DNA of 50,606 bases, taken from positions 1-50,606 of the IMG/VR virus record IMGVR_UViG_3300000956_000084, one strand, 5' to 3'. This document shows, piece after piece, positions 2,286 to 50,470 of the stretch (its first letter is position 1; every line of letters starts with the position of its first letter). The notes beneath the pieces were generated by a model. The model had not been told where the DNA came from, ran no database searches, and was given only the letters and a program-made list of their open reading frames with translations. The translations under genes were made by a program, and so were the position numbers. Origin of the DNA: a virus.

Positions 2286-2315
2286 AGAATACCCCAGGGG
2301 CGACGTGGGTGTCAA
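2286..2315 (-). promoter_or_regulatory. Repeat-family promoter/operator (minus strand)
   Basis: On the minus strand: TTGACA (2315-2310), 18-nt spacer containing CCCAC and CTGGGG arms, then TATTCT (2291-2286). The shared leader follows and leads to the ATG at 2246. CCCAGGGG (2293-2300) also pairs with CCCCTGGG (2316-2323), giving an 8-bp hairpin over the promoter that may end transcription from the gene at 2652. Confidence 0.85.
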
Positions 2316-2693: not shown

Positions 2694-2723
2694 AGATTAC
2701 CCCCCGCTGACCGTGGGTGTCAA
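2694..2723 (-). promoter_or_regulatory. Repeat-family promoter/operator within a 10-bp inverted repeat
   Basis: Minus strand: TTGACA (2723-2718), 18-nt spacer with CCCAC and GGGGG arms, TAATCT (2699-2694). GATTACCCCC (2695-2704) and GGGGGTAATC (2726-2735) are perfect complements flanking the promoter. In RNA from the gene at 2996 they form a 10-bp hairpin just after its stop, so the terminator and next promoter overlap. Confidence 0.85.
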
Positions 2724-3039: not shown

Positions 3040-3068
3040 ACATTACCCACCCCTTGCGTGGGTGTCAA
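3040..3068 (-). promoter_or_regulatory. Repeat-family promoter/operator (minus strand)
   Basis: Minus strand: TTGACA (3068-3063), 17-nt spacer holding a perfect ACCCAC/GTGGGT repeat, TAATGT (3045-3040). It drives the 85-aa gene at 2996. It overlaps the divergent leaderless promoter at 3054-3083, so a factor on the repeat could affect both directions. Confidence 0.85.
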
Positions 3069-22028: not shown

Positions 22029-22058
22029 ATTCTGCCCCACCATCACAGTGGGTGTCAA
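22029..22058 (-). promoter_or_regulatory. Repeat-family promoter/operator (minus strand)
   Basis: Minus strand: TTGACA (22058-22053), 18-nt spacer with CCCAC and GTGGGG, CAGAAT (22034-22029), a one-mismatch -10. The TGA stop of the upstream gene (22057-22055) is embedded in TTGACA. Confidence 0.8.
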
Positions 22059-23044: not shown

Positions 23045-23073
23045 ATGGTACCCACTGTTGCCGTGGGTGTCAA
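23045..23073 (-). promoter_or_regulatory. Repeat-family promoter/operator (minus strand)
   Basis: Minus strand: TTGACA (23073-23068), 17-nt spacer with CCCAC and AGTGGG arms, TACCAT (23050-23045), then the shared leader and the gene at 23003. Confidence 0.85.
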
Positions 23074-23139: not shown

Positions 23140-23661
23140 CTAATCGTTACCTACGAGTTCGCTTGTGCTGAACAGGGCCGTCTGCCCTGACTGCAGGCGA
23201 CGCAGCGCCTTCACGCCCCAGTCGGTCAGCTGGTACACCGTGCAGTCGCGGCCCGTGGACTCCTGCTTCACCTTCCGAACCTCGCGGCCAGCCAGCACAG
23301 GCTCCACCCACCCAGCCGCCGACAGCTCGTGGCGACGGCGACGCACCAGCTGGGCAGACGGCGCGTCGTTGCGGACCGGGGGCTGCAGGCGGGCCGTCAC
23401 CTGGAAGTCGGCCATGGGCCCTCCCGACAGGACGGTCAGAATCGAGTGCCGCAGGCTTCCGGGCCTGGTCGCCCGTCCTGTGTGAGCTGACCGCAGCTCG
23501 GGCGACTCCACGGGAGCCTGCGGGCAGTGCAGACGCTGCAGGGTGTCCAGCTCGTGCCGCACCGCGCGGAACGCCTGGTGGACCTCCTCGGTGGTGTGCT
23601 CGACGTCGAGCACCTGGGACAGCGACAGGGCTCGGAGGATGGCCGACTGGGTGGCGTTCAC
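23140..23661 (-). CDS. Winged-helix DNA-binding protein, 173 aa
   Basis: The start at GTG 23661 overlaps the upstream TAG by one base (TAGTG). The C-terminal half looks like a winged helix: SLRHSILTVLSGGPMADF, SAQLVRRRRHELSAAGWV, KQESTGRDCTVYQLTDWG, VKALRRL. The N-terminal 70 residues are helical (SAILRALSLSQVLDVEHT). It could be a regulator or a replication/recombination accessory. It is one of few candidates for the factor binding the repeated operators, but nothing links it to them directly. Confidence 0.55.
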   Translation of the reverse strand: MNATQSAILRALSLSQVLDVEHTTEEVHQAFRAVRHELDTLQRLHCPQAPVESPELRSAHTGRATRPGSLRHSILTVLSGGPMADFQVTARLQPPVRNDAPSAQLVRRRRHELSAAGWVEPVLAGREVRKVKQESTGRDCTVYQLTDWGVKALRRLQSGQTALFSTSELVGND

Positions 23662-26181: not shown

Positions 26182-26211
26182 AAGGTACCCCATGAACGTG
26201 GTGGGTGTCAA
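26182..26211 (-). promoter_or_regulatory. Repeat-family promoter/operator (minus strand)
   Basis: Minus strand: TTGACA (26211-26206), 18-nt spacer with CCCAC and ATGGGG, TACCTT (26187-26182). It drives the operon beginning at 26143 and is embedded in the hairpin at 26196-26232. Confidence 0.85.
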
Positions 26212-27536: not shown

Positions 27537-28255
27537 CAGGGACTCCTGTCCGACCTCGGCGCCGCGCCCTGCGATCCGCCTGCCTGGTAGGCACTGCCCA
27601 CGGACCGCGCCGTGGACTGGTAGCCGGACAGGACCGCCCGCAGGTTGTGCATGGTCTGCTTGACGGCCTCCTTCATCATCTTGGCCTCCAGCATCGAGGC
27701 GTGCTCCTCGGAGCAGTGCTGCATGGCCTGAGACTTGCGGACGTCCGCCGCGCCGCCGGTGGCCTGGTTGGCGACGAACGCGTGGTACTTCGCGTTGAAC
27801 GCCTGCTCTGCCTTCCAGGCGGCCACCACCGTCTCCCGCTCGAAGAGTGCGCCGGTCTCCAGGCGGTAGAGCGTGTCGAGGATGTGCCGCTCCACGTCCT
27901 CGGGGCCGTAGACCTCGGTGGGGTCGATCAGGGCCAGCGTCGAGCGGATCGGGTCGGCGGCCTCGGCGACCGTGTTTCCCGTCTGCCGGACCGCCGTCCC
28001 GGTCAGCTCGGGAGCCTCGGCGGAGTCCGACCGCTCGCCGTCGGCCCAGGGCGGGCTCTGCGGGTCGTCCTCGGGGAAGGGCTCAAAGACGCCGCACCCG
28101 CACACCACCTGTCCGGACGCCGGATCGTAGGACGCCTGGGCGAGGTACTGGCACTCTCGGTGTCCGGCGGCCACGAGCACGGCACGCACGCGACCCTTCA
28201 GCGCGCTGGCGTAGTCGGCCGCGCCCGCCTGGCCGCCTTCGTCTCCGGCGCTCAC
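27533..28255 (-). CDS. Recombination-block protein with cysteine motif, 240 aa
   Basis: No family recognised with confidence. GTG 28255 overlaps the ERF stop. Residues 33-55 contain CQYLAQASYDPASGQVVCGC, a possible zinc site. Residues 110-215 are helical (VERHILDTLYRLETGALF, TVVAAWKAEQAFNAKYHAF, MLEAKMMKEAVKQTMHNL). Direct coupling to the ERF gene suggests a partner role in recombination, perhaps as an exonuclease accessory, but no nuclease motif is clear. Confidence 0.5.
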   Translation of the reverse strand: MSAGDEGGQAGAADYASALKGRVRAVLVAAGHRECQYLAQASYDPASGQVVCGCGVFEPFPEDDPQSPPWADGERSDSAEAPELTGTAVRQTGNTVAEAADPIRSTLALIDPTEVYGPEDVERHILDTLYRLETGALFERETVVAAWKAEQAFNAKYHAFVANQATGGAADVRKSQAMQHCSEEHASMLEAKMMKEAVKQTMHNLRAVLSGYQSTARSVGSAYQAGGSQGAAPRSDRSPW

Positions 28256-29835
28256 CGGTAGCCATCCTCGGGCGGGTAGTTTCCGCTGGGCAGGTCGCGC
28301 GCCGCGTGGTCAAGCTCCTGCTGGCTGGGCTGGTATTCGCCCGGTGGGGGTGGCGCCTGCAGGGTGCGCATGGCGGCCTGGCCGTGCTGGTTGAGCGTCG
28401 AGCCCTCCACGGTCACCTCCAGCAGGCCCTCCCCCTTGACCTGGTTCATGATCTGCACCAGGCGGTTGTATTGGGCCTGCGGCCCGCCCTCGACGCGGTA
28501 CACGTTGCGGATGGCGCCCAGCGCTTCGATGGCTCTGGCGCTCTTGTCCTGCGCGGTCTGTTCGGCCTGCTTGGGCGCGGCACCCGTCGTCGGCTGCTGG
28601 ACGCGCTCCTGCTCCATGCGCTGCGGGGGCGACGCGTCGCTGTCGTCCAGTCCGGTGACGGGGATCATGAGTGCCTGAAACAGCCCGTACTTGAGGGCCA
28701 TCGAGGCGGCCTTGCTGGTGGACTTGTCCGAGGCGTCCCGGCCCTCGCCCACCATTTCCAGGGAGTGGGTGGAGCCGTCGTCCGGGTCGGTGAATGTGTA
28801 GCGCACTGTGAGCTTCGAGGTGGTCCACACCACCGTGTTTTCGTACCGGCGGCCCTGGTTGTTCTCGCCCGCCTTGGTGATCGCGTTCTGGGTGGTCTCG
28901 TCCTTCAACACCTCGGTGCCCAGGATCACGCCCACCTCGCGCATCGCGTGGCCGACCGCGTCCATGGCGTCGTCCACGCCCCGGAACTTGAACCGGCCAC
29001 CCTTCTCTCCAAGGTTGGCCTCCTTCTCCTTGCCGATGTGCGGGACCATGCGCATCAGCTGCAGCACCTTGCGCGCCGCGCCGGTCCCGTTGCCGGCGGC
29101 TGCGGGAGCCCCCTGCAGTTGGGCCGCTGCCCGGTCGATAACCGCCTGGGACACGTGCGTGCCGTGGACCTCGACGTGCTGGCGCAGGTCGGCGAACTCG
29201 CGCCGCAGGTTCGCCAGCATGGCCGGCGTGAGGTCGGCCGCCTCGAACATGGCGGACAGCTTGCGGTCCACGGCGGCCTGGATCTGGTCGGCCAGCGCGT
29301 CCTCGGCGAGCGTGTACGACACCGGGTCGGCCTGTGCGGCCTGTCCAGCCTCGCGGTCCGCTTCCAGTTCCGTGATGCGCTGGCGCAGATTGGACATGGT
29401 CGGGTGCATGTTCTGCGCTACCTGCGCGGTGAGGCCGTCCACGTCCACCGTGGCCGCCTTGCGCTCTACGTCCTCCAGGCGAGCCAGGATCGCGGCGAGC
29501 TTCGGCGAGTCAGGCGAACCGACGGCCGCGAGGGTGGTGCCGCGCAGCTCGTGCACCTCCTGGTGCAGCGGTGCCAGGGCTTCATGGATGCGCGCGTCCA
29601 CCTGGTCGCGGTCGGGCGTGTCGCCCGGTCGGACGCCGGACAGGCGCCCCATCATCTCGTCCCGCAACTCGCCGTGCGCGGTCGCCCGATCCTGCACCTG
29701 GGTGGCCAGGTCGGTGACGACTGCGGACAGGTCGTCCAGTCGGCCGTCCAGCTGCTGGGTGAGGGCCGCCACCTCGGCGGTGGTCATGCGCTTGGTGGGC
29801 GGCGTGTCAGTCTGGTCGGGCATCGGGTGTGTCAT
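28252..29835 (-). CDS. ERF-family single-strand annealing protein with long helical N-terminus, 527 aa
   Basis: Residues about 256-400 fit the ERF recombinase domain: VLQLMRMVPHIGKE, GGRFKFRGVDDAMDAVGHAM, REVGVILGTEVLKDE, TSKLTVRYTFTDPDDGSTHS, DKSTSKAASMALKYGLFQAL. ERF proteins anneal complementary strands in phage recombination and circularisation. The first 250 residues form several coiled-coil stretches (LTQQLDGRLDDLSAVVTDLA, LARLEDVERKAATVDVDGLT) not normal for ERF, and a 125-residue tail follows, so the protein is roughly twice the usual length. Start ATG 29835 overlaps the preceding stop (ATGA). SSB is encoded downstream. Confidence 0.8.
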   Translation of the reverse strand: MTHPMPDQTDTPPTKRMTTAEVAALTQQLDGRLDDLSAVVTDLATQVQDRATAHGELRDEMMGRLSGVRPGDTPDRDQVDARIHEALAPLHQEVHELRGTTLAAVGSPDSPKLAAILARLEDVERKAATVDVDGLTAQVAQNMHPTMSNLRQRITELEADREAGQAAQADPVSYTLAEDALADQIQAAVDRKLSAMFEAADLTPAMLANLRREFADLRQHVEVHGTHVSQAVIDRAAAQLQGAPAAAGNGTGAARKVLQLMRMVPHIGKEKEANLGEKGGRFKFRGVDDAMDAVGHAMREVGVILGTEVLKDETTQNAITKAGENNQGRRYENTVVWTTSKLTVRYTFTDPDDGSTHSLEMVGEGRDASDKSTSKAASMALKYGLFQALMIPVTGLDDSDASPPQRMEQERVQQPTTGAAPKQAEQTAQDKSARAIEALGAIRNVYRVEGGPQAQYNRLVQIMNQVKGEGLLEVTVEGSTLNQHGQAAMRTLQAPPPPGEYQPSQQELDHAARDLPSGNYPPEDGYR

Positions 29836-30464
29836 CCCTCCGGGTTGGTCTTGCCGGTGCGTGCGAACTTCTCCAGCCCGACCTCCAGTGCACGCGTCAC
29901 GGTGCACTCGGCGGCGTCGAGCCTGCTCACGATCTGCTGGTAGCGGTCCTCGGGCAGGGTGAAGCGCAGCGGCTTCAGGACGGCCCGCTCCGCCGCGCTC
30001 ACGTGCTTGGCCAGCGTCTTGTCCGCCACCACGTACTGCAGTAGGCCGTCCAGTTCGGCGGCCTTGCGGACGGCGGCGATCGGGCCCAGCGTGGTGCCGC
30101 GCGCCGGATCGGCGACCCGGCGCAGGTGTTCGAGGAGCTGCTGGGCGCGCTCGGCGTCGCTGGCACCCTCGGCGCGCTGCGGCACAGCGTCCAGTTCGCT
30201 CTTGGTGTACTTGCGGTGTCCGCGCTGGGTCAGCCGGTTGCCCGCCGTGTCCATCGGATTGCCGCCCACAAGTCCGATGGGGTTGGTGTGTTCGGGCTTC
30301 CAGTTGTTCAGGATCTCCCGGCCCACGGACGCCATCGAGGTGGAGGGCACGCCGGTGGCGGCCTTCTCCTGCCTTCGGATCTCGGCCACCCGCGTACGGG
30401 CCGCATTCATCACCACGGTGCGGATGCTCACGTCCACGTTGTGGGTGCTCGGTTCCTTGGTCAC
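29832..30464 (-). CDS. Hypothetical first gene of recombination operon, 210 aa
   Basis: GTG 30464 follows GAGGAGGCGAGA, a strong site. N-terminal 35 residues (DVSIRTVVMNAARTRVAEI) are helical and basic. Residues 80-210 contain several helices (SDAERAQQLLEHLRRVADPA, KTLAKHVSAAERAVLKPL, ALEVGLEKFARTGKTNPEG); the final segment, with TVTRALEVGLEKFA, resembles the end of ribbon-helix-helix proteins. It might regulate the operon. It is driven by the variant repeat promoter 30489-30518. Confidence 0.5.
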   Translation of the reverse strand: MTKEPSTHNVDVSIRTVVMNAARTRVAEIRRQEKAATGVPSTSMASVGREILNNWKPEHTNPIGLVGGNPMDTAGNRLTQRGHRKYTKSELDAVPQRAEGASDAERAQQLLEHLRRVADPARGTTLGPIAAVRKAAELDGLLQYVVADKTLAKHVSAAERAVLKPLRFTLPEDRYQQIVSRLDAAECTVTRALEVGLEKFARTGKTNPEG

Positions 30465-30488: not shown

Positions 30489-30518
30489 AATCTACCCCAC
30501 AATGGGATGGGGTGACAA
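30489..30518 (-). promoter_or_regulatory. Variant repeat-family promoter/operator, leftward early operon
   Basis: Minus strand: TTGTCA (30518-30513), 18-nt spacer with CCCCAT and GTGGGG arms, TAGATT (30494-30489). It drives the ERF/SSB operon. It shares its -35 region with the divergent promoter 30512-30541. Confidence 0.75.
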
Positions 30519-37631: not shown

Positions 37632-38108
37632 ATGTACAGCAACCACCGGCTCCCCGGCCTGCGACCCGGCCAGCGTGTCCGCATGATCCCCCTGCAGGCG
37701 GAGATCCTGCCCGAAGGGGGAATCCGGATTTCCAGTCCACTGGCGCGCGGCTGGGCCGGACACGCGCGCACGGCCGCCGAACTTGCCAACACCCTGGCCA
37801 CCGCCTTCGTAGAGGTGGAGGTGGCCGGGTACGCGCTGGCCAAGGGCGAGAACTACGACCAGGACCGCCTCACCGAGCACGTGCCGGACGACGCCCTGGC
37901 CGGAACGAAGATGGCCCGCAGGCGCGGCCCGGTCGCGCGCCGCGCCGCGCATCCGCCCGAGGCGTGGAAGATGAACGGCGACGGCTCGTGGCAGTCTCCG
38001 GCGGGGCGCCGGTATCCCGAGACCTCGCCGCATGTCCAGCGGGTGATTGCCAAGCTGCAGGCCAAGGCAAGTCCAGTTGACACCCACAAGGAACCTGGGG
38101 TAGCCTGA
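37632..38108 (+). CDS. Hypothetical protein, 158 aa
   Basis: ATG 37632 follows CGGAGGTGACC. Residues 30-75 (GGIRISSPLARGWAGHARTA, AELANTLATAFVEVEVAGYA) suggest a mixed fold; residues 100-130 are basic (MARRRGPVARRAAHPPEAW). The last 11 residues are coded by the next promoter, so this end may be incidental. No family recognised. Confidence 0.55.
   Translation: MYSNHRLPGLRPGQRVRMIPLQAEILPEGGIRISSPLARGWAGHARTAAELANTLATAFVEVEVAGYALAKGENYDQDRLTEHVPDDALAGTKMARRRGPVARRAAHPPEAWKMNGDGSWQSPAGRRYPETSPHVQRVIAKLQAKASPVDTHKEPGVA
38077..38106 (+). promoter_or_regulatory. Repeat-family promoter/operator inside the 3' end of the upstream gene
   Basis: TTGACA (38077-38082), 18-nt spacer with CCCAC and CTGGGG arms, TAGCCT (38101-38106). 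The shared leader follows. The gene at 37632 reads through the element and stops at 38108. Confidence 0.85.
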
Positions 38109-38629: not shown

Positions 38630-38973
38630 CCGGCAAGCGCACGAAGATCACAGCCGCCTCCACGCGGTCACACCGGGCCGCGTGGAGGCGGCCGCGCACC
38701 ACGATCGACGCGATCGACATCCTGGAGCGCAACGGGTTCCTTCCCAGCAACACGCACGCCGGAGTCGCCTTCGTACGCGTGGTGGGGTTTATGGCCATCC
38801 GGGTGACGATCGCCGACGGTGAGGCCACCCTGGACACGGCGTTGCGCATGGACGGCCAGTCGGTGCGCTGGCGCCAGGTGCGCGGGGTTGGCTCGGCGCC
38901 GTGGCAGGTAGCCGGCGAGGCCCTGGAGTACGTTGCGACCCTCAGCGTTGACACCCCCGTTCGATGGGGGTAA
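38626..38973 (+). CDS. Hypothetical protein, 115 aa
   Basis: GTG 38626 overlaps the preceding stop (GTGA). A 15-bp hairpin begins 27 nt into the gene and encodes its basic start (STRSHRAAWRRPR). Residues 27-100 (TIDAIDILERNGFLPSNTHA, VVGFMAIRVTIADGEATL) look folded, so a later start after the hairpin is possible. The C-terminus (SVDTPVRWG) is coded by the next promoter and the TAA stop is part of the -10 box. Confidence 0.45.
   Translation: MTGKRTKITAASTRSHRAAWRRPRTTIDAIDILERNGFLPSNTHAGVAFVRVVGFMAIRVTIADGEATLDTALRMDGQSVRWRQVRGVGSAPWQVAGEALEYVATLSVDTPVRWG
38653..38692 (+). terminator. 15-bp terminator-like hairpin inside a coding frame
   Basis: GCCGCCTCCACGCGG (38653-38667) pairs perfectly with CCGCGTGGAGGCGGC (38678-38692), with a 10-nt loop. 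It resembles other GC-rich terminators here but lies 27 nt after the GTG of the 38626 gene; it may attenuate that gene. Confidence 0.55.
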
Positions 38974-38976
38974 GAT
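38948..38976 (+). promoter_or_regulatory. Repeat-family promoter/operator
   Basis: TTGACA (38948-38953), 17-nt spacer with CCCCC and GGGGG arms in place of CCCAC/GTGGG, TAAGAT (38971-38976). The TAA stop of the upstream gene forms part of the -10. A shortened leader (GCGGAAGGAACACG) precedes the GTG at 39006. Confidence 0.8.
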
Positions 38977-42865: not shown

Positions 42866-43245
42866 TGATCACGTGCTGCGAGGCATGCGCCACCTGGGGC
42901 CCGTACTTCCCGGGTGGCGCATGCCGCTGTGCCTGCCATCCGGCCGTGTCCGCCGAGACGTTGGCGGCCATCCGCGCGGCCAGCGCGCCGGTGCCACCCC
43001 AGACGGTCGGCTGGGCGCCCGAGGTGCTCGACGCCATCCGCTGGCCCACCCTGGCCCCGTTCGCGCTGGAGACGCCCGAGCAGGCCAGGCGCAGGGAGTT
43101 CCTGGAGCGCCTCATGCAGGAGTACGTCCTGGCAACCCCGCTGTTGACACCCCACGCCAGTGTGGGTAATGTGTTCCCTGCCGGAGGGGCCCAGCCCAGC
43201 AACTGGGACGGTGTCAGGCCAAGCCCTCCGGCGCCCGGAACTTGA
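42865..43245 (+). CDS. Cysteine-rich hypothetical protein, 126 aa
   Basis: ATG 42865 overlaps the upstream stop (TGATG). Three cysteine pairs lie within the first 30 residues (TCCEACATWG, GGACRCACHP), suggesting a zinc-binding head; the rest is helical (VSAETLAAIRAASAPVPPQ, ETPEQARRREFLERLMQEY). Its final 34 codons run through promoter 43144-43172 and the first RNA hairpin, so the true C-terminus may be a by-product of the overlap. Confidence 0.5.
   Translation: MITCCEACATWGPYFPGGACRCACHPAVSAETLAAIRAASAPVPPQTVGWAPEVLDAIRWPTLAPFALETPEQARRREFLERLMQEYVLATPLLTPHASVGNVFPAGGAQPSNWDGVRPSPPAPGT
43144..43172 (+). promoter_or_regulatory. Repeat-family promoter/operator for the structured-RNA island
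   Basis: TTGACA (43144-43149), 17-nt spacer with CCCCAC and GTGGGT arms, TAATGT (43167-43172). The expected start (about 43179-43180) coincides with the first base of the hairpin 43180-43232. Unlike the other copies, no shared leader and no gene start follow, so it probably makes a non-coding transcript. Confidence 0.85.
43180..43232 (+). ncRNA. 5' hairpin of the RNA island (S1)
   Basis: GCCGGAGGG (43180-43188) pairs with CCCTCCGGC (43224-43232); inside, CCCAG (43195-43199) pairs with CTGGG (43203-43207). It is at the predicted 5' end of the transcript and could protect it. Function inferred only from structure. Confidence 0.45.
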
Positions 43246-43257
43246 CAACTTCAGACA

Positions 43258-43317: not shown

Positions 43318-43439
43318 ACAAGATCCCGATGGGGCGTGGACAGACTGGAAGGACCGCCACCGCGAGTAGCTGCACAACGGCTTCGGCCTGCAGCCCGGTG
43401 GCGGACACCCGAAGCGGTGCGCCTACCCGAGGGATCAAC

Positions 43440-43872: not shown

Positions 43873-43877
43873 ACCCT

Positions 43878-43951: not shown

Positions 43952-44100
43952 CTGAAGGAATGAGGCGGCCCGGCGGGGCCTGGAAGCTCGCCTTCTAGGG
44001 GTAAGCACAGATGTGCCCTGCCCGAGTAGGCCGGGGGTCGCGCCCTGGCGGAAAGGGCAGAGGGCCGGGTCGGCACCGGCTGCCCTGCGAACGTCAGCAC

Positions 44101-44161
44101 GCCACGACGTGCACCCTTGCCTACGGGCGCTGGGGGGCTGTTGCACGCAGCCCAACGTGGC
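44101..44161 (+). ncRNA. Nested hairpin at the 3' side of the RNA island
   Basis: GCCACG (44101-44106) pairs with CGTGGC (44156-44161), and inside GGGCTG (44135-44140) pairs with CAGCCC (44148-44153). It may end the island transcript before the promoter at 44206. Confidence 0.4.
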
Positions 44162-44205
44162 GGGAGTCTCAGGTGGGCCTGTTGCTGACGCGGGCCCACT
44201 CCCAC

Positions 44206-44235
44206 TTGACACCCACAGCGTACATGGGTTATCTT
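44206..44235 (+). promoter_or_regulatory. Repeat-family promoter/operator
   Basis: TTGACA (44206-44211), 18-nt spacer with CCCAC and ATGGGT arms, TATCTT (44230-44235). The shared leader (GGAACAACCCAACGGGGAAG, then GACCC) precedes the ATG at 44277. Confidence 0.85.
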
Positions 44236-44276
44236 GTGCGTGTACGGAACAACCCAACGGGGAAGGACCCAAGATC

Positions 44277-44744
44277 ATGAGAACCACCATCAGCGAAGAG
44301 CAGGCCATCCTCTCCATCCTGTCGCCGACCATGCGCCGCGCCATGCTGGCCGCCGAGCCCCTGAACGAAGAGCCCGACCGCAAGGTCATCCGCGTGACGC
44401 CGGACACGTCCGTGGGCACCGTGGTGGCACTGATCGGCCGTGGCCTCGCCGAGCCCCAGCCGTCGAGCAGCACCGGCAGGGAGCACGAGCTGACCGACAA
44501 GGGTCTCTGTGTTCTGCACGCGCTGAACGCCCTGCGGGCGCGCGGCCAGGCTGGCACCGAAGACCCCCGGCCGGCGCGACTGGCGCGCAAGCTCGAAGAC
44601 CGCGCCAGCGTTCACCACCTGCGCGCCCACACCGTCTCTACGGTCCTGACACTGCTCGTGCGGGAGCGCATCGTCACCGGTCAGCAGGCCGAACGCCTGA
44701 ACGCCGTAGCGCAGGAACTGGACAAGCTGGCGGCCCTGCGATGA
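44277..44744 (+). CDS. Hypothetical protein, 155 aa
   Basis: ATG 44277 follows GGGGAAGGACCCAAGATC. The first 45 residues (EEQAILSILSPTMRRAMLAA) and the region GTVVALIGRGLAEPQPSSST, TGREHELTDKGLCVLHALN resemble a small winged-helix DNA-binding domain in which a Gly-Leu turn is followed by LTDKG; the C-terminal half (SVHHLRAHTVSTVLTLLVRE) is helical. Possible regulator under the repeat-family promoter. Overlaps the next start (ATGA). Confidence 0.5.
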   Translation: MRTTISEEQAILSILSPTMRRAMLAAEPLNEEPDRKVIRVTPDTSVGTVVALIGRGLAEPQPSSSTGREHELTDKGLCVLHALNALRARGQAGTEDPRPARLARKLEDRASVHHLRAHTVSTVLTLLVRERIVTGQQAERLNAVAQELDKLAALR

Positions 44745-44953
44745 TCTGGGCCCTGGTAGCGCTGGCGGTCGCCCTGGCCGCCAGCGCCTGGACGACCGCC
44801 TACGCGATCACGGATGCCATCCCAAGCCTGTTGTGGCTGGACCACGTCCGTCGGACGGACGCCTGGTGGGACACCATCGAGGCCATGCACGAGACCCTGG
44901 CCAACTGGCAGAACCTGGAAGCGGTGGCGGCGTGGACCGCGTCGAGACCTTGA
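44741..44953 (+). CDS. Membrane-anchored hypothetical protein, 70 aa
   Basis: ATG 44741 overlaps the upstream stop (ATGA). N-terminal hydrophobic segment (WALVALAVALAASAWTTAYA, residues 3-22) may be a signal anchor; the rest is aromatic and helical (TDAWWDTIEAMHETLANW). Its end overlaps the Mom-like gene by about 20 nt. Confidence 0.5.
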   Translation: MIWALVALAVALAASAWTTAYAITDAIPSLLWLDHVRRTDAWWDTIEAMHETLANWQNLEAVAAWTASRP

Positions 44954-45579
44954 GTGTCGTGCCGCTCGACGCGAGGTCTGCTGCGGCCCTGGTCGTCGAG
45001 CACCACTACCTGCACCGGCGGCCGCCGATCAGTCACGCGTTCGGGCTGCACGAGCACGGCCGCCTGGCCGGTGCGATCACCTTCGGAACCCCCGCGTCGC
45101 GACACATGCAGGTGGGCGCGCTGCCCGATGAGCCGGGCGCCGTCGTCGAACTGAACAGGCTGTGGGTGTCCAACGAGATGCCCCGCAACACAGAGTCCTG
45201 GTTCGTGTCGCGGGCCCTGCGCGCCATGCCCGCCCGCGTCGTCCTGTCCTACGCGGACACGGCACAAGGCCACCTCGGCTACGTCTATCGCGCCTGCAAC
45301 TTCTGGTATGCCGGATGGACGGACATGGAGCGCCCCAAGCCTCGCCTGGACTACCTGCCCGCAGACCCGGGCACACACACCCGCGACGCCTTCCGCTCGG
45401 GCTACGAGCGCACCGTACGGCGGCGACCCAAGGTGAAGTACTGGACCACGACCGGCAACCGCACGGAACGGCGCAGGCTGACCGCTGCGTGCCAGTGGCC
45501 GCGCCTGGACTGGGCCCGCTACCCGCCACCGGCCGACGGACACGTTCAACTCCGTACCTTCGAGCAGGTGGGCGGGTAG
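44932..45579 (+). CDS. Mom-like DNA base modification protein (GNAT-type fold), 215 aa
   Basis: ELNRLWVSNEMPRNTESWFV, SRALRAMPARVVLSYADTAQ, GHLGYVYRACNFWYAGWTD is the conserved core of the phage Mu Mom family: E-L-x-R-L, P-x-N-x-x-S, SYAD and GHxGxxYxAxNxxYxG. Mom proteins place a methylcarbamoyl group on adenine, shielding phage DNA from host restriction. The N-terminal HHYLHRRPPISHAFGLHEHG and LAGAITFGTP also fit. The C-terminus is basic (RRRPKVKYWTTTGNRTERR). GTG 44932 is used; TTG 44950, overlapping the upstream stop as TTGA, is equally possible. Substrate and product are inferred from the family. Confidence 0.75.
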   Translation: MDRVETLSVVPLDARSAAALVVEHHYLHRRPPISHAFGLHEHGRLAGAITFGTPASRHMQVGALPDEPGAVVELNRLWVSNEMPRNTESWFVSRALRAMPARVVLSYADTAQGHLGYVYRACNFWYAGWTDMERPKPRLDYLPADPGTHTRDAFRSGYERTVRRRPKVKYWTTTGNRTERRRLTAACQWPRLDWARYPPPADGHVQLRTFEQVGG

Positions 45580-45599
45580 CGGGCCCAGGACGAGAGGCC

Positions 45600-45785
45600 T
45601 TACGCGCGGACCAGGCTGGCGAGGCCGACCAGCTGGGAGCGGGAGGCCCGCAGCACCTGGCCGCTCTTCGAGTCGCCGACCCGGTTCGGGTCGCCCGCCT
45701 CGGGCACGTAGAGACAGTCGTTCTGGGCTCCGGAGAACGTGGACTTGCGGAAGGTGTCGCCGTCGAATTCCAGGGTGAGTTCCAT
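45600..45785 (-). CDS. DUF397 protein, 61 aa
   Basis: FRKSTFSGAQNDCLYVPEAG, DPNRVGDSKSGQVLRASRSQ matches the DUF397 signature (W/F-x-K-S-x-x-S-x-x-x-x-x-C-V-E-V-A ... V-x-D-S-K). These small proteins occur in Streptomyces and relatives, usually beside an XRE-type regulator (WhiJ-like) and linked to development or toxin-antitoxin-like control. Here it stands alone, on the strand opposite its neighbours. ATG 45785 has no ribosome-binding site but is 6 nt after TACACT, predicting a leaderless mRNA. It may interfere with host regulators. Family call firm, role inferred. Confidence 0.75.
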   Translation of the reverse strand: MELTLEFDGDTFRKSTFSGAQNDCLYVPEAGDPNRVGDSKSGQVLRASRSQLVGLASLVRA

Positions 45786-45791
45786 GCGCAC

Positions 45792-45820
45792 AGTGTAGTG
45801 GCGGTGGCGGACGGTGGTTG
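45792..45820 (-). promoter_or_regulatory. Leaderless promoter of the DUF397 gene
   Basis: TACACT on the minus strand (45797-45792) lies 6 nt before the ATG at 45785. The -35 region (about 45815-45820) is weak. The divergent repeat-family promoter 45846-45875 is 26 nt away, so the two may share control. Confidence 0.5.
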
Positions 45821-45845
45821 TGGGAGATTCGCTGGGATCCCGTAG

Positions 45846-45875
45846 TTGACACCCACATCGCCCATGGGCTACTCT
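45846..45875 (+). promoter_or_regulatory. Repeat-family promoter/operator
   Basis: TTGACA (45846-45851), 18-nt spacer with CCCAC and ATGGGC arms, TACTCT (45870-45875), then the leader GGAACAACCCCAACCGGGAA GGACCC before the ATG at 45918. Confidence 0.9.
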
Positions 45876-45917
45876 TCTCTTATCAGCAGGAACAACCCCA
45901 ACCGGGAAGGACCCCCA

Positions 45918-46274
45918 ATGACCGCCACGCTCCTCGCCCAGGCTCCCAACTTCTTCGGTCTCACCGGTCGTCAGGCCATCGGCCGTCGTCAGGTTGCCGT
46001 GGCCACCGACTACGCGGGCGCCGTCACCGTGCTCTACCGCGCGGCCGACCAGTACTGGAATGTCGTCACCCGCGACGTGCGGAACGCGTTCACCCACGGC
46101 TCCGAGGCTGGCGCCTCGGCGTCCATCTGGTTCGACCGCCACGAGAGCCGCTACGTCGTGGACTACTGCGACCGCGACGGCGTCCGTGTCGAGGCGGGCC
46201 GTGCCCACGGGCTCGGCGCCGCTATCGGCATCGCGACCTCCACCACCACTCACCAGTGGGCAGAGTCCCGGTGA
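45918..46274 (+). CDS. Hypothetical protein, 118 aa
   Basis: ATG 45918 follows the shared leader. Mixed fold: VAVATDYAGAVTVLYRAADQ, YWNVVTRDVRNAFTHGSEAG, ASIWFDRHESRYVVDYCDRD, ending in a helix (HGLGAAIGIATSTTTHQW). No family recognised. A complete cassette, since a terminator follows at 46283. Confidence 0.55.
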   Translation: MTATLLAQAPNFFGLTGRQAIGRRQVAVATDYAGAVTVLYRAADQYWNVVTRDVRNAFTHGSEAGASASIWFDRHESRYVVDYCDRDGVRVEAGRAHGLGAAIGIATSTTTHQWAESR

Positions 46275-46282
46275 CAGACCAC

Positions 46283-46321
46283 ACGCGGGAGGGCCCGTCT
46301 ACCCGGCGGGCCATCCCGCGT
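46283..46321 (+). terminator. Terminator hairpin
   Basis: ACGCGGGA (46283-46290) pairs with TCCCGCGT (46314-46321), and GGCCCG (46292-46297) with CGGGCC (46307-46312), with one mismatch. It lies 9 nt after the stop at 46274. Confidence 0.75.
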
Positions 46322-46349
46322 GTCGCCGAACGGGAGCCGTGGATGGGTG

Positions 46350-46378
46350 TTGACACCCATTACGATATGGGGTAGCGT
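46350..46378 (+). promoter_or_regulatory. Repeat-family promoter/operator with extra hairpin
   Basis: TTGACA (46350-46355), 17-nt spacer with CCCAT and ATGGGG arms, TAGCGT (46373-46378). ATGGGTG (46343-46349) also pairs with CACCCAT (46353-46359) around a TTGA loop, adding a symmetric half-site. Confidence 0.85.
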
Positions 46379-46419
46379 TGCTGTCAACGGGAACAACCCA
46401 TCGGGAAGGACCAACCGAG

Positions 46420-46809
46420 ATGATCACCGCGACCGTCGCTCAGGACGCCACCACCGAGCTGCCCGCCATCGTCAATTGCACACGCTGCGGCCGCGCCCTA
46501 AAGGACGCCAAGAGCCGTGAGCGCGGCCGTGGTCCGGTCTGTGAGCGCAAGTACCGCGCCGCCATCGACGAGGCCACCAAGCTCACCTCGGCGAGCATGG
46601 TCGGTCGCGCGCTGGCGCTGGTCGCGAACGGCGGAGTGGTCAAGAACGGCTCGGACAGCTTCTACACGGTCACCACCGAGGGTGGGACCTACCGCACCGA
46701 CCGGACCCTGTGCACCTGCCAGGCTGGCCAGAACGGACGCCCGTGCTACCACCTGGTGGCCGTCGTGTTGCTGGAGGTCAAGGCCGTCAGGCCGTCACCG
46801 GTGAGCTAG
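46420..46809 (+). CDS. DUF6011/SWIM-type zinc-binding protein, 129 aa
   Basis: ATG 46420 follows GGGAAGGACCAACCGAG. CTRCGRALKDAKSRERGRGP, VCERKY is the CxxC ... G-P-V-C zinc pattern of the phage DUF6011 family (residues 20-45). LCTCQAGQNGRPCYHLVAVV near residues 99-118 fits a SWIM zinc finger (CxC ... CxH), which binds DNA or protein. Two metal sites in such a short protein suggest a DNA- or RNA-binding factor. Confidence 0.7.
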   Translation: MITATVAQDATTELPAIVNCTRCGRALKDAKSRERGRGPVCERKYRAAIDEATKLTSASMVGRALALVANGGVVKNGSDSFYTVTTEGGTYRTDRTLCTCQAGQNGRPCYHLVAVVLLEVKAVRPSPVS

Positions 46810-46815
46810 GTCACA

Positions 46816-46850
46816 ACGGCCACCGTGGGGTTGACACCCACGGTGGCCGT
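46816..46850 (+). terminator. 14-bp terminator hairpin with a promoter -35 in its loop
   Basis: ACGGCCACCGTGGG (46816-46829) pairs perfectly with CCCACGGTGGCCGT (46837-46850) around the 7-nt loop GTTGACA. It begins 7 nt after the stop at 46809. The loop contains the -35 hexamer of the next promoter. Confidence 0.85.
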
Positions 46851-46860
46851 GGGTTAGAGT
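46831..46860 (+). promoter_or_regulatory. Repeat-family promoter/operator
   Basis: TTGACA (46831-46836), 18-nt spacer with CCCAC and GTGGGT arms, TAGAGT (46855-46860). The shared leader leads to ATG 46906. The -35 lies in the loop of the terminator at 46816-46850. Confidence 0.9.
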
Positions 46861-46905
46861 TCTTACATCACCAAGGAACAACCCCCCGAGGGAAGGACCA
46901 AGATC

Positions 46906-47115
46906 ATGGCATACCACCCCACCACCACGGGAAGCCTGCCCCGCGACCTCGCCGCCCTCATGGCCGACCTGAACGACCTGGGCACAGCGAAGCACAACGC
47001 GGCCGTGGCCAAGGGTCACGACACCCTGGAGGGGCGCGGCTACGAGGCCCAGAGCCACGCCTACCTGAACGCCGCCGTCTGGGTGCAGGAGCTGCTGGAC
47101 GCGCACGCGAGGTAG
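46906..47115 (+). CDS. Small helical protein, 69 aa
   Basis: ATG 46906 follows GGGAAGGACCAAGATC. One helical hairpin is likely: LPRDLAALMADLNDLGTAKH, YEAQSHAYLNAAVWVQELL. No family recognised. A complete cassette between promoter 46831 and terminator 47123. Confidence 0.55.
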   Translation: MAYHPTTTGSLPRDLAALMADLNDLGTAKHNAAVAKGHDTLEGRGYEAQSHAYLNAAVWVQELLDAHAR

Positions 47116-47122
47116 TGGGACC

Positions 47123-47144
47123 GGGGCCCGAGAAATCGGGCCCC
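47123..47144 (+). terminator. Terminator hairpin
   Basis: GGGGCCCG (47123-47130) pairs with CGGGCCCC (47137-47144), loop AGAAAT, just after the stop at 47115. Confidence 0.8.
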
Positions 47145-47153
47145 ATCACCCTG

Positions 47154-47183
47154 TTGACACCCACGGTCCGCGTGGGGTACAGT
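47154..47183 (+). promoter_or_regulatory. Repeat-family promoter/operator
   Basis: TTGACA (47154-47159), 18-nt spacer with CCCAC and GTGGGG arms, TACAGT (47178-47183); a near-consensus copy. Leader GGAACAACCCGCCAGGGAAG then GACCC precedes ATG 47229. Confidence 0.92.
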
Positions 47184-47228
47184 AGTCACATCAGCAAGGA
47201 ACAACCCGCCAGGGAAGGACCCAAGATC

Positions 47229-47414
47229 ATGACCGACAGGCTGCAGCTCACCAACAAGATCCACACCGCCGCAGAGACGGGCACCGTGGGCAACCTGCGG
47301 GACCGGAACGGCCGCTGGGCCCGCACCACCTGCGGCACCCGCAACGCCAAGACGCGCCCGCACTACGTGGACGCCGAGGCGTCGGTGACCTGCATCAAGT
47401 GCCTGGCCGACTGA
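47229..47414 (+). CDS. Small zinc-finger-like protein, 61 aa
   Basis: ATG 47229 follows the shared leader. NLRDRNGRWARTTCGTRNAK and VTCIKCLAD provide Cys at about residue 35 and a C-terminal CIKC pair, a partial zinc ribbon. Function unknown. The terminator 47419-47453 completes the cassette. Confidence 0.55.
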   Translation: MTDRLQLTNKIHTAAETGTVGNLRDRNGRWARTTCGTRNAKTRPHYVDAEASVTCIKCLAD

Positions 47415-47418
47415 CCTC

Positions 47419-47453
47419 GTGGCTGGCGCCCCGCTTCCTCGGGCGCCAGCCAC
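47419..47453 (+). terminator. Terminator hairpin (shared loop type)
   Basis: GTGGCTGGCGCCC (47419-47431) pairs with GGGCGCCAGCCAC (47441-47453), 13 bp. The loop and adjoining bases (GCCCCGCTTCCTCGGGCG) are identical to those of the terminator at 49521-49557. Confidence 0.85.
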
Positions 47454-47499
47454 CTCCTGATCACCTTGACACGTTTCAACCTCACACCCGGAGAAGATC

Positions 47500-47793
47500 A
47501 TGAGAGTGCCCCACAACGTCGAGCTGGTGGACGGGCGCCCCGACGGCCCCGAGCCGCCGACCCGCTACCGCGTGTACTGGACCAACCTTCCCGGTAGCGC
47601 ACTCAAGTCCTTCGGTGTCGTCGACACCATCGGCCACGAGCGCGGCCTACCGCTGCAGGACTTCGTGGTGCTCGACGCCCAGCAGTCCGACGGCCGCCGA
47701 CACGCCCAGCGCGTGGCCGACGCGGCGAACACCCTGCACGCCACCGCCACCCTGCTGGGACTCAAGATCACCGCGCAGGGGGTCCAGCTGTGA
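47500..47793 (+). CDS. Hypothetical protein, 97 aa
   Basis: ATG 47500 follows CCGGAGAAGATC. Beta-type N-terminus (TRYRVYWTNLPGSALKSFGV) and helical C-terminus (DGRRHAQRVADAANTLHATA). A TTGACA at 47466 upstream has no matching -10, so its promoter is unclear. Start of a six-gene run to 49076. Confidence 0.5.
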   Translation: MRVPHNVELVDGRPDGPEPPTRYRVYWTNLPGSALKSFGVVDTIGHERGLPLQDFVVLDAQQSDGRRHAQRVADAANTLHATATLLGLKITAQGVQL

Positions 47794-48206
47794 ACTCGCG
47801 CAACCTGATCAGCCGCGTGCCGGACGACCGGCTGGCCAAGCTTCCCGTGTACGCGCAGGACGAGATCAACATGGCCCGCCGGTACATCGCCGAGCTGGAG
47901 GCCGAACTGTCCGCGCTCGTGGACCCCGACCACTCGGCAACCACCCACGTGGACCCGCACGCGGACCGCCCGAAGCCCATCGGTGACAACCCCACCGTTC
48001 GCCACCGCCTCGCCGACGGGAGCGAAATCGAGGTGACCTGTCACCCGCACAAGGTCACGGTGAGCGCCAGCGAAAAGAGCTTCCATCAGCGGATGGTCAT
48101 CGTCCCGCAGGTGTCGAACGTCGTGGACGTGGTGCTGGCCGACTGGACCGCCTGGCCGCAGGACCCGCGCCCGAAGCTCTCCGACGTCTGGAGAGTGCAA
48201 CGGTGA
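47790..48206 (+). CDS. Hypothetical protein, 138 aa
   Basis: GTG 47790 overlaps the upstream stop (GTGA). Helical start (AKLPVYAQDEINMARRYIAE, LEAELSALVDPDHSATT) and beta-type rest (ADGSEIEVTCHPHKVTVSAS, VVDVVLADWTAWPQDPRPKL). No family recognised. Confidence 0.5.
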   Translation: MNSRNLISRVPDDRLAKLPVYAQDEINMARRYIAELEAELSALVDPDHSATTHVDPHADRPKPIGDNPTVRHRLADGSEIEVTCHPHKVTVSASEKSFHQRMVIVPQVSNVVDVVLADWTAWPQDPRPKLSDVWRVQR

Positions 48207-48484
48207 TTCCATCTGGTCGGCACCCTTTGCGTTTCGCCACGGGCGGGCAGCCATGGCGCGTGGCGCCTCTCCACGAGCACGCCGACATGAGCACACCTGT
48301 GGCCAGCCTCTGGGCGTGGCGACTGGGAGATGACGGCTCCGTCGTGCTGCAGTCTGACGACGGCGACGTCACCATTCCGGCCGACTGTCTCACCTCGGTG
48401 GCCAACGGCCTGATCGCGGTGCACGTCCTCAACGGCCGACCCGACGTCCCGGGAATCCGGGCGACCCAACCGAAAGGATCATGA
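48203..48484 (+). CDS. Hypothetical protein, 93 aa
   Basis: GTG 48203 overlaps the upstream stop (GTGA). Mostly beta-type (VASLWAWRLGDDGSVVLQSD, DGDVTIPADCLTSVANGLIA). Function unknown. Confidence 0.45.
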   Translation: MIPSGRHPLRFATGGQPWRVAPLHEHADMSTPVASLWAWRLGDDGSVVLQSDDGDVTIPADCLTSVANGLIAVHVLNGRPDVPGIRATQPKGS

Positions 48485-48485
48485 A

Positions 48486-48614
48486 GTGACCGACCACGTG
48501 GACCTGTCCGGCATGACCGACGCCGAAAAGGCCGACCTCTACGCCAAGCAGGTGCAGGAGATGAAGGACCGCCAGCCCACTGGCCAGGACAGTGGCGACA
48601 CCACGGCCCGTTAG
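48486..48614 (+). CDS. Small helical protein, 42 aa
   Basis: GTG 48486 follows AAAGGATCATGAA. DLSGMTDAEKADLYAKQVQE is a clear helix with an acidic tail (TGQDSGDTTAR). Overlaps the following membrane gene by 23 nt. Function unknown. Confidence 0.5.
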   Translation: MTDHVDLSGMTDAEKADLYAKQVQEMKDRQPTGQDSGDTTAR

Positions 48615-48762
48615 AAGGGCCCTGCGTCGCGCTGGCGGCCTCCTGGCCATCCTGGTGGCCGCCAGCGCGTTCCTGCTGCTGCTCGCCGTCCTGGCCTTCG
48701 CTGCGGCCTTCCTGGGCGGCCCGTTGTTCGTTGACCTCCTCCGGTCCCTTCACGAAAGGTGA
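48592..48762 (+). CDS. Small membrane protein, 56 aa
   Basis: GTG 48592 in the frame giving a basic N-terminus (ATPRPVRRALRRAGG) and a long hydrophobic segment (LLAILVAASAFLLLLAVL and FAAAFLGGPLF), ending LLRSLHER; one or two membrane passes. Stop overlaps the ribosome-binding site of the next gene (GAAAGGTGATC). Function unknown. Confidence 0.5.
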   Translation: MATPRPVRRALRRAGGLLAILVAASAFLLLLAVLAFAAAFLGGPLFVDLLRSLHER

Positions 48763-48764
48763 TC

Positions 48765-49076
48765 ATGGCTAGATCAGCTGACCGCAGGTCGCGGTCCAAC
48801 CGGAATGATCGCGGTTCCACCTACTCGCGCCGACGCCGCCGAGAGTGGCTGGTGGAGCACTTCGGCGACGGCGAGTTCGTGGCCTGCTTCCGCCAGGAGT
48901 CGCCCCACTGCCTGTACGTGCTCGACGTCACTAACGTCTCGCCGGACCGGCTGGTCCTCGGCGTGAACGGCGGGAGCTACCGGCGAGGGAACATCCAACC
49001 GGCGTGCCTGCCGTGCCAGTGCTACCAGGGCGGTCAGGTGGGGCCGGTCCAGAAGTCGCTGCGCCGGAGCGGTTGA
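48765..49076 (+). CDS. HNH-like endonuclease, degenerate, 103 aa
   Basis: CFRQESPHCLYVLDVTNVSP, DRLVLGVNGGSYRRGNIQPA, CLPCQCYQGG follows the HNH/McrA order: a Cys-Cys finger, a beta-hairpin with DR, GGxYxxxNIxPAC and a final CxxC. The usual first catalytic His is not seen (DVTNVSPDR), so activity is doubtful. The N-terminus is very basic (SADRRSRSNRNDRG). ATG 48765 follows GAAAGGTGATC; GTG 48759 is an alternative. The TGA stop lies within the next -35 box. Confidence 0.6.
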   Translation: MARSADRRSRSNRNDRGSTYSRRRRREWLVEHFGDGEFVACFRQESPHCLYVLDVTNVSPDRLVLGVNGGSYRRGNIQPACLPCQCYQGGQVGPVQKSLRRSG

Positions 49077-49102
49077 CACCCACTACGGCCGTGGGCTACT
49101 CT
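49073..49102 (+). promoter_or_regulatory. Repeat-family promoter/operator
   Basis: TTGACA (49073-49078), 18-nt spacer with CCCAC and GTGGGC arms, TACTCT (49097-49102). The TGA stop of the HNH-like gene lies within TTGACA. Leader GGAACAACTCC ... GAGAAGGACCATCAG. Confidence 0.9.
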
Positions 49103-49144
49103 ATCCACACAACGGAACAACTCCACAGAGAGAAGGACCATCAG

Positions 49145-49516
49145 ATGACCGCCATCTACGGCCACAACCGCCGCACCAACCGCAACGAGACCGGCGAGTT
49201 CTTCGAGATCACCATCACCCAGCCCCGGGCGCGCGTGATCTACGTCCGCCTCGGCGACATGGACGGCGAGGTCGTGAGCATCCCGGCTGCGCTTCGAGGC
49301 TCCCTGGCCAAGATCCCCAGCGGACTGCAGGACTTCAAGATCCTGGACCGGGTCACGGTGTCCCGCACCGACGGCCGCCGCGTCACCACCGGCGAGATTC
49401 ACTCTCTCGTCTTCGAGCGCCAGGGCTGCGGACGCGGGATCATGATCAAAGATGATCACTCCAGCCTCTCCGTCTGGATGCCGCTCCGCGATGTAACCGT
49501 CACTCCGGCCGACTGA
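49145..49516 (+). CDS. Hypothetical protein, 123 aa
   Basis: ATG 49145 follows the shared leader. Beta-rich: GEFFEITITQPRARVIYVRL, DMDGEVVSIPAALRGSLA, LQDFKILDRVTVSRTDGRRV, GIMIKDDHSSLSVWMPLRDV. Possibly a small beta barrel. No family recognised. Terminator at 49521 completes the cassette. Confidence 0.55.
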   Translation: MTAIYGHNRRTNRNETGEFFEITITQPRARVIYVRLGDMDGEVVSIPAALRGSLAKIPSGLQDFKILDRVTVSRTDGRRVTTGEIHSLVFERQGCGRGIMIKDDHSSLSVWMPLRDVTVTPAD

Positions 49517-49520
49517 GACC

Positions 49521-49557
49521 ACAGCCCCCCGCCCCGCTTCCTCGGGCGGGGGGCTGT
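49521..49557 (+). terminator. Terminator hairpin (shared loop type)
   Basis: ACAGCCCCCCGCCC (49521-49534) pairs with GGGCGGGGGGCTGT (49544-49557), 14 bp. It shares the loop and flanks GCCCCGCTTCCTCGGGCG with the terminator at 47419-47453. Confidence 0.85.
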
Positions 49558-49596
49558 CCCCTGTCTCCAGTCGCCGAGGTGGACCCCCTCGGGTAG

Positions 49597-49626
49597 TTGA
49601 CACCCACGGCGAGGGTGGGATACTGT
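49597..49626 (+). promoter_or_regulatory. Repeat-family promoter/operator
   Basis: TTGACA (49597-49602), 18-nt spacer with CCCAC and GTGGGA arms, TACTGT (49621-49626). Leader GGAACAACCCCCCGGGAAGG, then ACCACAGACC before ATG 49669. Confidence 0.92.
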
Positions 49627-49668
49627 GGAACACAGCAAGGAACAACCCCCCGGGAAGGACCACAGACC

Positions 49669-50100
49669 ATGAGCAAGCTCCCCCGCCGCAAGGCCCCCGC
49701 CCACGCCGGACACTTCACCTCGCACAGCTGGAGGAGCATCGGCCACCAGTTCGGCCGCGCCATCCACGACCAGCCGTCAATTGGGTGGATGGGCCAGCAC
49801 GATCTGTCCGTCGAGCTGTGGCGCGTTGTCAAACACTGGGACTTCGAAAGCGCCGCGTCCGCCGTCGAGGCCGCAGCCAGCCACCTGCCGGTGCTGATCA
49901 CTTGGACCAACCCGTTCATGGACAAGGTGGAGGTGCACACGGGCTACGCCATCGTGGAGTACGTGGCCATGAGCCCCGCGTCGGACCCGCGCCTACGGCT
50001 GCGCTACTCCGGTTTCTGCCACTACGTCTACGCGTCGCAGGTGCGCACCATCGAGCAAGTGGGCGTGACCGCGACCTACGAGTCGGCCCCCGCCTCGTAG
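49669..50100 (+). CDS. Hypothetical protein, 143 aa
   Basis: ATG 49669 follows the shared leader. Basic, His-rich N-terminus (SKLPRRKAPAHAGHFTSHSW), helix (FESAASAVEAAASHL) and beta-type remainder (VLITWTNPFMDKVEVHTGYA, RYSGFCHYVYASQVRTIEQV). No family recognised. The stop lies one base before the next -35. Confidence 0.55.
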   Translation: MSKLPRRKAPAHAGHFTSHSWRSIGHQFGRAIHDQPSIGWMGQHDLSVELWRVVKHWDFESAASAVEAAASHLPVLITWTNPFMDKVEVHTGYAIVEYVAMSPASDPRLRLRYSGFCHYVYASQVRTIEQVGVTATYESAPAS

Positions 50101-50101
50101 G

Positions 50102-50131
50102 TTGACACCCACTAGCGCAGGGGGCTAGTAT
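50102..50131 (+). promoter_or_regulatory. Repeat-family promoter/operator
   Basis: TTGACA (50102-50107), 18-nt spacer with CCCAC and AGGGGG arms, TAGTAT (50126-50131). GCCCCC (50086-50091) pairs with GGGGGC (50120-50125), another terminator-promoter overlap. The shared leader leads to ATG 50174. Confidence 0.9.
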
Positions 50132-50173
50132 CGTGTCCTCAGCAAGGAACAACCCCCCAGGGAAGGACCACCG

Positions 50174-50470
50174 ATGATCACCACCAGTCCCGCCCACATC
50201 GCCCGCGACACGTGGACCGGCACCTGGACCCGCAGGGGTGTCCCGACCGGCTACCGCGCCGACAGCTTCACGGCCGCCGAACTGGCCACACTACTCGGGC
50301 GCGAGTTCGTGATCTGGGAGAGCGCGGGCCACATGCGTGGGAGTGGGGAGCTGTTCGTCCGGTCCCGCTACGTGTCCCAGGAGGACGGCACCCTGACCGG
50401 CTACGACTCCGATGGCCGCCGGGTCATCATCCACCCGTCCGCGCGAACCCTGCGCATCCTCACCAAGTAG
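50174..50470 (+). CDS. Hypothetical protein, 98 aa
   Basis: ATG 50174 follows GGGAAGGACCACCG. Sequence SFTAAELATLLGREFVIWES is a helix-strand unit; GELFVRSRYVSQEDGTLTGY and RRVIIHPSARTLRILTK are beta-type. No family recognised. Complete cassette with terminator 50479. Confidence 0.55.
   Translation: MITTSPAHIARDTWTGTWTRRGVPTGYRADSFTAAELATLLGREFVIWESAGHMRGSGELFVRSRYVSQEDGTLTGYDSDGRRVIIHPSARTLRILTK

Follow-up and report, generated by a model that had tools for sequence, protein, structure and literature searches.

A genome-wide array of near-identical predicted promoters with a putative two-armed spacer operator in an uncultured actinobacterial phage

Cluster K mycobacteriophages carry start-associated sequences (SAS) and extended start-associated sequences (ESAS) (PMC3203893), and in Adephagia the ESAS have been described as SigA-like promoters whose hexamers are 17-18 nt apart and which include an imperfect inverted repeat (PMC11373665). 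Actinophage promoter repeats of the ESAS kind have been on record since 2011, with neither a binding protein nor a function assigned to them. Here, we analyse the virus record IMGVR_UViG_3300000956_000084 (50,606 nt, 68.6% G+C), which was taken in its whole length and is called the window below. In this genome, 18 near-identical predicted promoters with the hexamers TTGACA and TANNNT, and with an inverted repeat filling the spacer between them, appear to drive most of the non-structural genes of the virus. We will argue that the ESAS and SAS of cluster K are the closest known system, and that the copies are rather probably strong host-sigma promoters with a spacer operator for one phage regulator, for which repression and early shut-off are likelier than activation of the MerR type. 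Such a regulator would probably control all copies together.

The virus is an uncultured actinobacterial phage of an undescribed group. The nearest relatives of its terminase and capsid genes are those of other phages, many of them actinobacterial, at 35-42% identity, and a BLAST search with a 14.6-kb stretch of the window matched no named phage at the DNA level. Five related IMG/VR records of 57-60 kb, labelled G001 to G005 (terminase identity 61-99%), have the same element, and these are together with the window referred to as the six genomes. A more distant relative, G006 (IMGVR_UViG_3300048998_000127; terminase 50%, capsid 57%), carries a version of it that has diverged. It should be kept in mind that all records are metagenome-derived, with the host not identified and completeness not certified, that the gene calls come from a simple script, and that orthologous copies of the element are not independent of each other.

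The likeness to the cluster K system is considerable. Both systems are arrays of SigA-like promoters with 17-18 nt spacing, both have an inverted repeat embedded in the promoter motif, and in both a conserved start-associated sequence stands just before non-structural genes, in some cases without a promoter. The sequences differ, however: neither the cluster K SAS GGGATAGGAGCCC nor the TGTTGA/TCAACA-type ESAS arms that overlap the hexamers are found here. In the ESAS copies that we extracted from Pixie and Anaya, the -35 forms part of the arms and the -10 is overlapped by them, the Pixie arms being 17 bp long (TGTTGACACCTCAACAG ... CTGTTGAGCTATCAACA), whereas the arms described here lie wholly inside the spacer. 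The number of ESAS in Adephagia is 7, and this phage has an integrase; the six genomes have 13-18 copies each, and no integrase was found in them.

Other actinophage systems resemble this one in part. Microbacterium phages of cluster EF (AnnaSerena, PMC7302621) are likewise without integrase or repressor, have a start-associated GGGAAAGGACCCC where GGGAAGGACC is found here, and have an upstream motif with a -10-like GTAGAGT; this motif is, on the other hand, weakly conserved and has neither TTGACA nor the CCCAC/GTGGG arms. The sequence-only reading of the window that preceded this work had pointed to the cluster A stoperators as a parallel, and the stoperators of clusters A and CA (PMC9283540, PMC13313380) are indeed numerous short, scattered sites to which a single phage protein binds, but the cluster K system is a closer one. 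Stoperators are 13-14 bp long, asymmetric and oriented with transcription, and many lie outside promoters, whereas every TTGACA-TANNNT copy here is a predicted promoter with a dyad, so that the definition of a stoperator does not apply. The L5 stoperator consensus is GGTGGMTGTCAAG, and the half TTGACACCCAC of the present element resembles its reverse complement. In the stretch of the HermioneGrange genome that was examined, no repressor is annotated. Near-identical palindromes in arrays before small genes are also found in cluster O (17 bp, PMC4351075) and cluster EG (18-bp repeats, PMC7302621). Unlike the repeats here, they lie apart from the predicted promoters. In the temperate Streptomyces phage phiC31, conserved inverted repeats are dispersed operators near early promoters, all bound by one repressor, and both their sequence and their placement differ from the element here. 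Compared with the known cases examined, the evidence for a two-armed operator appears stronger in the present group, which offers a much cleaner case, with up to 18 copies per genome and two invariant half-sites at fixed spacing in six genomes.

We now turn to the element itself. The sequence-only reading had described eight copies between 44206 and 50131, which are all exact in position, TTGACA, 17 or 18 nt spacer and TANNNT; the list was incomplete, however, the array being genome-wide and on both strands. The window has 16 sites of the form TTGACA-N15..20-TANNNT (11 on the plus strand and 5 on the minus strand), against 0.14 expected in dinucleotide shuffles, and all 16 bear both arms. Two variant copies, at 22029-22058 (-) and 30489-30518 (-), bring the total to 18. 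A search of the window and its relatives, in which one mismatch was tolerated in TTGACACCC and one in NGGG, yields 95 copies in the six genomes. Both arms are present at 86 out of 86 TTGACA-N16..19-TANNNT sites on the two strands, and 9-17 arm-bearing copies per genome compare with none in 50 dinucleotide-shuffle trials of each of the six.

The consensus of the 95 copies is TTGACA, CCCA[C/T], 7 free positions, [G/A][T/G]GGG, 0-1 nt and TANNNT, the arms being best written CCCAC-N7-GTGGG. Their cores, CCC (positions 7-9) and GGG (21-23), are invariant in 95/95; all left-side departures fall within TTGACA, none in CCC, and the -35 is off consensus in 9 copies. The spacer between -35 and -10 is 17 nt in 37 copies and 18 nt in 58. 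The spacing CCC-N11-GGG is nevertheless constant, and it is the stretch from GGG to the -10 that varies by one nucleotide. The position of the right arm is hence fixed relative to the left arm instead of the -10, as would be expected if a single protein contacted both arms.

The same geometry bears on another possible explanation, namely that the arms are an extended promoter signature for RNA polymerase or for a host or phage sigma factor, with no separate operator protein. The arms adjoin both hexamers and are found at every TTGACA-TANNNT site, and the promoters could be copies of one optimum. However, the distance of the right arm is constant with respect to the left arm rather than the -10, the arms survive the decay of a hexamer (see below), the composite is not in excess in bacterial genomes, and no sigma factor was recognised among the scanned proteins, a scan that covered part of the proteins. 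We consider this explanation improbable. The bacterial genomes gave 36 scattered single matches to the composite in 257 Gb, as compared to ca 45 expected by chance, and a bacterial or prophage origin was rejected on account of these single, chance-level matches. A BLAST comparison of the consensus with known phages found no phage with the same element.

The arms were proposed at the outset to be under selection beyond promoter function, and their conservation relative to the spacer centre in relatives had been set beforehand as the comparison that could overturn this. The arms turn out to be the more conserved. Of the 160 arm positions in the 16 pairs of orthologous copies from the window and G005, 4 have changed, as against 27 of the 112 centre positions (p=5e-8), and 21% of the 15 flanking bases are changed in these pairs. 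The arms also outlast the hexamers. A search anchored on the leader sequence that follows most copies (see below) gave 88 leaders in the six genomes, 77 with a known element and 4 more with both arms and a decayed -10, reading CAGAAT or TGATGT. Before the gene g43, the -35 reads TTGTCA in five genomes and TTGCTA in G002, and the arms are retained. Selection on the arms beyond promoter function is thus supported by the comparison of related genomes.

No covariation was found between position pairs across the dyad in 64 non-redundant copies, which fits protein recognition of DNA rather than a hairpin. We have also considered an RNA hairpin, folded by the inner arms when transcripts read through the element, as CCCAC is complementary to GTGGG and a quarter of the copies overlap long hairpins. 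The missing covariation led us to reject this option, and the inner repeat moreover lies upstream of the expected transcription start; it is very improbable.

The preferred explanation is the following. Each copy would be a strong promoter of the host sigma-A type, with a fixed-geometry operator in its spacer on which one sequence-specific DNA-binding protein, most likely phage-encoded, would sit as a dimer. Located between -35 and -10, this protein would exclude RNA polymerase, and repression would hence be its likeliest action. On infection, all promoters would fire at once with the host polymerase, and the regulator would later shut the set down, while autoregulating its own gene via the variant copy in front of it. 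We infer that transcription starts at these sites, that a protein binds and represses them, and that this regulator is the product of either g43 or g32.

The placement of an operator between the hexamers, put forward in the sequence-only reading, thus stands as the best interpretation, but the MerR-type activator offered with it does not. A phage activator binding the arms and switching the set on, possibly by twisting the spacer, would at first seem natural, since MerR-type sites are classically dyads at the middle of the spacer, and the array is equally compatible with one regulon turned on together. MerR-type activation relies on spacers of 19-20 nt, however, and those here are of 17 or 18 nt, the optimal length. 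With hexamers near consensus, such promoters should work with the host polymerase alone and require no activator. Nor was any MerR domain detected among the proteins scanned with Pfam, which were part of the total. A MerR-type operator was accordingly rejected for the lack of a dyad in a 19-20 nt spacer, and activation by any phage protein is considered unlikely.

As to the purpose of the shut-off, no match to PF00589 or PF00239 (tyrosine integrase or resolvase) was found in the six genomes, whose completeness is not certified. The apparent absence of an integrase favours lytic early control over lysogeny and immunity, and the natural use of the system would then be the shut-off or fine timing of early genes.

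The binding protein was earlier described as not obvious in the window, but two plausible candidates are encoded there. The first is g43 (29832..30464, minus strand, 210 aa), a predicted double ribbon-helix-helix-like protein present in the six genomes and in G006. It heads the Erf recombination operon, directly upstream of g42, an Erf-family single-strand annealing protein (28252..29823, minus strand), and the variant copy TTGTCACCCCATCCCATTGTGGGGTAGATT at 30489..30518 (-) serves as its predicted promoter. The structural model of g43 (mean predicted local distance difference test score, pLDDT, of 82.9) has beta-alpha-alpha at both ends, which is the ribbon-helix-helix pattern, and comparison with viral models gives ribbon-helix-helix names at weak matches. 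The homologue in G006 has an extra N-terminal stretch that is helix-turn-helix-like. The second candidate, g32 (23140..23661, minus strand, 173 aa), is a PadR/MarR-like winged-helix protein found in all six genomes. PadR sites of the type ATGT-N8-ACAT have half-site centres 12 bp apart, and the half-site centres of the phage element are at the same distance. When sequences of the Protein Data Bank (PDB) were compared with profiles of g43 and g32 and with the single sequences of g64 and g35, neither a relative nor a two-domain immunity repressor chain was found. With a list of candidates this short, the question of what reads these repeats, and why, comes within reach of a direct test using a single protein and a single DNA probe.

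It is important to note that several observations weigh against this explanation. Many arm pairs are imperfect partners, CCCAC occurring with ATGGG or GGGGG, and outside the CCC and GGG cores the dyad appears only approximate. Foldseek returned no structural match of g43 in the PDB. The best structural matches of g32 are PadR-family regulators, at the level of the fold alone (E about 1e-3), and in G006 the g43 homologue is kept and g32 was not detected. The records are also possibly incomplete, in which case a repressor or an integrase could be missed.

The repeated unit is larger than the promoter and operator first described, as a leader and, at some copies, a fused terminator belong to it too. 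At most copies, a leader GGAACAACCC-N-GGGAAGGACC begins ca 11 nt 3' of the -10 and ends 2-9 nt before the start codon. Among the 88 leaders, 81 have an element and 7 do not. As leaders thus occur without a promoter, some of them inside operons, they probably act after transcription. Their ends are matched: 50 leaders have the pair CCC/GGG, 10 have CTC/GAG, and none mixes these two types. This is suggestive of a short RNA stem adjacent to the ribosome-binding site, although the ten CTC/GAG variants partly share ancestry.

A long inverted repeat overlaps 24 copies, 3 in the window and 21 in the relatives; it is made up of the upstream flank and the promoter, and its arms reach 21 bp at most. An inverted-repeat score of 10 or more is reached by 22 of the 95 copies, as compared to one case in 1,900 shuffled flanks. 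All but one of the 24 overlapped copies lie downstream of a gene on the same strand, and a stop codon stands 16-31 nt upstream of the -35 in 21 of them, against 2 copies without such a repeat. We read these repeats as putative terminators of the upstream gene joined to the next promoter, one arm being the promoter itself.

Another option considered was that the elements are mainly recombination joints at which gene cassettes are exchanged, and that regulation comes second. In the closest pair, the window and G005, 5 of the 30 points where homology ends are located in units, compared to 1.1 expected uniformly (p=0.006). The gene after the promoter at 47154 is replaced in G005 with the promoter unchanged (47154-47232), and a whole extra unit is present in G005 (at 8331; window side 49070-49082), the homology stopping at the element. 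The phage also encodes the Erf annealing protein. There is, however, no enrichment relative to non-coding positions (5 vs 5.5), it is weak or none in more distant pairs, and recombination alone would not preserve the CCC/GGG geometry beside a variable centre. The elements could not be told from ordinary intergenic breakpoints in this respect, and recombination as their main role was rejected and is quite improbable.

A more far-reaching possibility, which we put forward tentatively, is that the non-structural genes of a lytic actinophage group have become standardised as interchangeable cassettes, with one phage protein, possibly g43, shutting all of them off and with shared ends allowing accessory genes to be swapped. 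Equally tentatively, the parts of such a cassette would be a terminator fused to a promoter, an operator, a leader stem and a start site. For work with high-GC bacteria, the cassette would also provide a regulated expression part that is ready for use.

The copies of the window are distributed as follows. In the plus-strand array, the promoter-operator TTGACACCCACAGCGTACATGGGTTATCTT at 44206..44235 is followed by a leader (44246-44276) and g64 (44277-44744), which by eye is winged-helix-turn-helix-like. Next come those at 45846..45875 (leader 45889-45917, gene 45918-46274), at 46350..46378 with a 17 nt spacer (leader 46390-46419, gene 46420-46809 with DUF6011 and SWIM domains) and at 46831..46860 (leader 46875-46905, gene 46906-47115). 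A 14-bp perfect inverted repeat, ACGGCCACCGTGGG / CCCACGGTGGCCGT, is fused to the last of these at 46816..46850 (+) and is a likely terminator of the upstream gene. The array continues at 47154..47183 (leader 47198-47228, gene 47229-47414), 49073..49102 (CTC/GAG leader variant 49114-49144, gene 49145-49516), 49597..49626 (leader 49639-49668, gene 49669-50100) and 50102..50131 (leader 50146-50173, gene 50174-50470). Further copies on the same strand are found at 38077..38106 (leader from 38116, gene 38144-38629), at 38948..38976 within the end of g55 (degenerate leader, gene 39006-39167) and at 43144..43172, which has no leader and heads a non-coding tRNA region with no gene.

On the minus strand, promoter-operators are located at 2286..2315 (with leader; gene 1851-2246), at 2694..2723 with a fused imperfect inverted repeat (2695-2735; gene 2335-2652), at 3040..3068 with a 17 nt spacer (with leader; gene 2739-2996), at 23045..23073 (with leader; gene 22680-23003) and at 26182..26211 with a fused 12-bp inverted repeat (26196-26232; gene 25862-26143). 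The variant at 22029..22058 (-) has both arms intact, a -10 of CAGAAT and a CTC/GAG leader before the gene 21817-21984. The original description of one small gene or short operon per copy holds thus for the most part: 34 of the 95 units have a single gene before the next element, but others are longer operons, and the copy at 43144 heads the tRNA region.

This conserved non-coding region (42866-44205) holds the 43144 element and a tRNA-Glu (43878-43952). Over 859 nt it is 95% identical to G005 with no gene called, and Rfam finds the tRNA alone; some relatives have tRNA-Glu and tRNA-Val at the same place. Within the array, 44932-45579 (+) encodes a Mom-family DNA modification protein with up to 58% identity to mycobacteriophage proteins, and 45600-45785 (-), opposite in orientation to the array, a small DUF397 protein of a family known from actinobacterial chromosomes. 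A conserved CTTGACACGTTTCAACCTCAC-CCCGGAGA stands before g72 at 47465-47500 (+), with TTGACA but without TANNNT or the arms, and is present in G005 too. Elsewhere in the window, the adjacent virion genes g11 and g12 share a repeat of ca 74% identity (6444-6735 and 7276-7573), seen as off-diagonal matches. G006, finally, has ca 15 diverged elements (TTGACACCCACCG), often with a degenerate right arm; its leader is not the same but reads ACCACTTGGAG, and several of its promoters are preceded by a conserved flank, CATTCGAGTGA.

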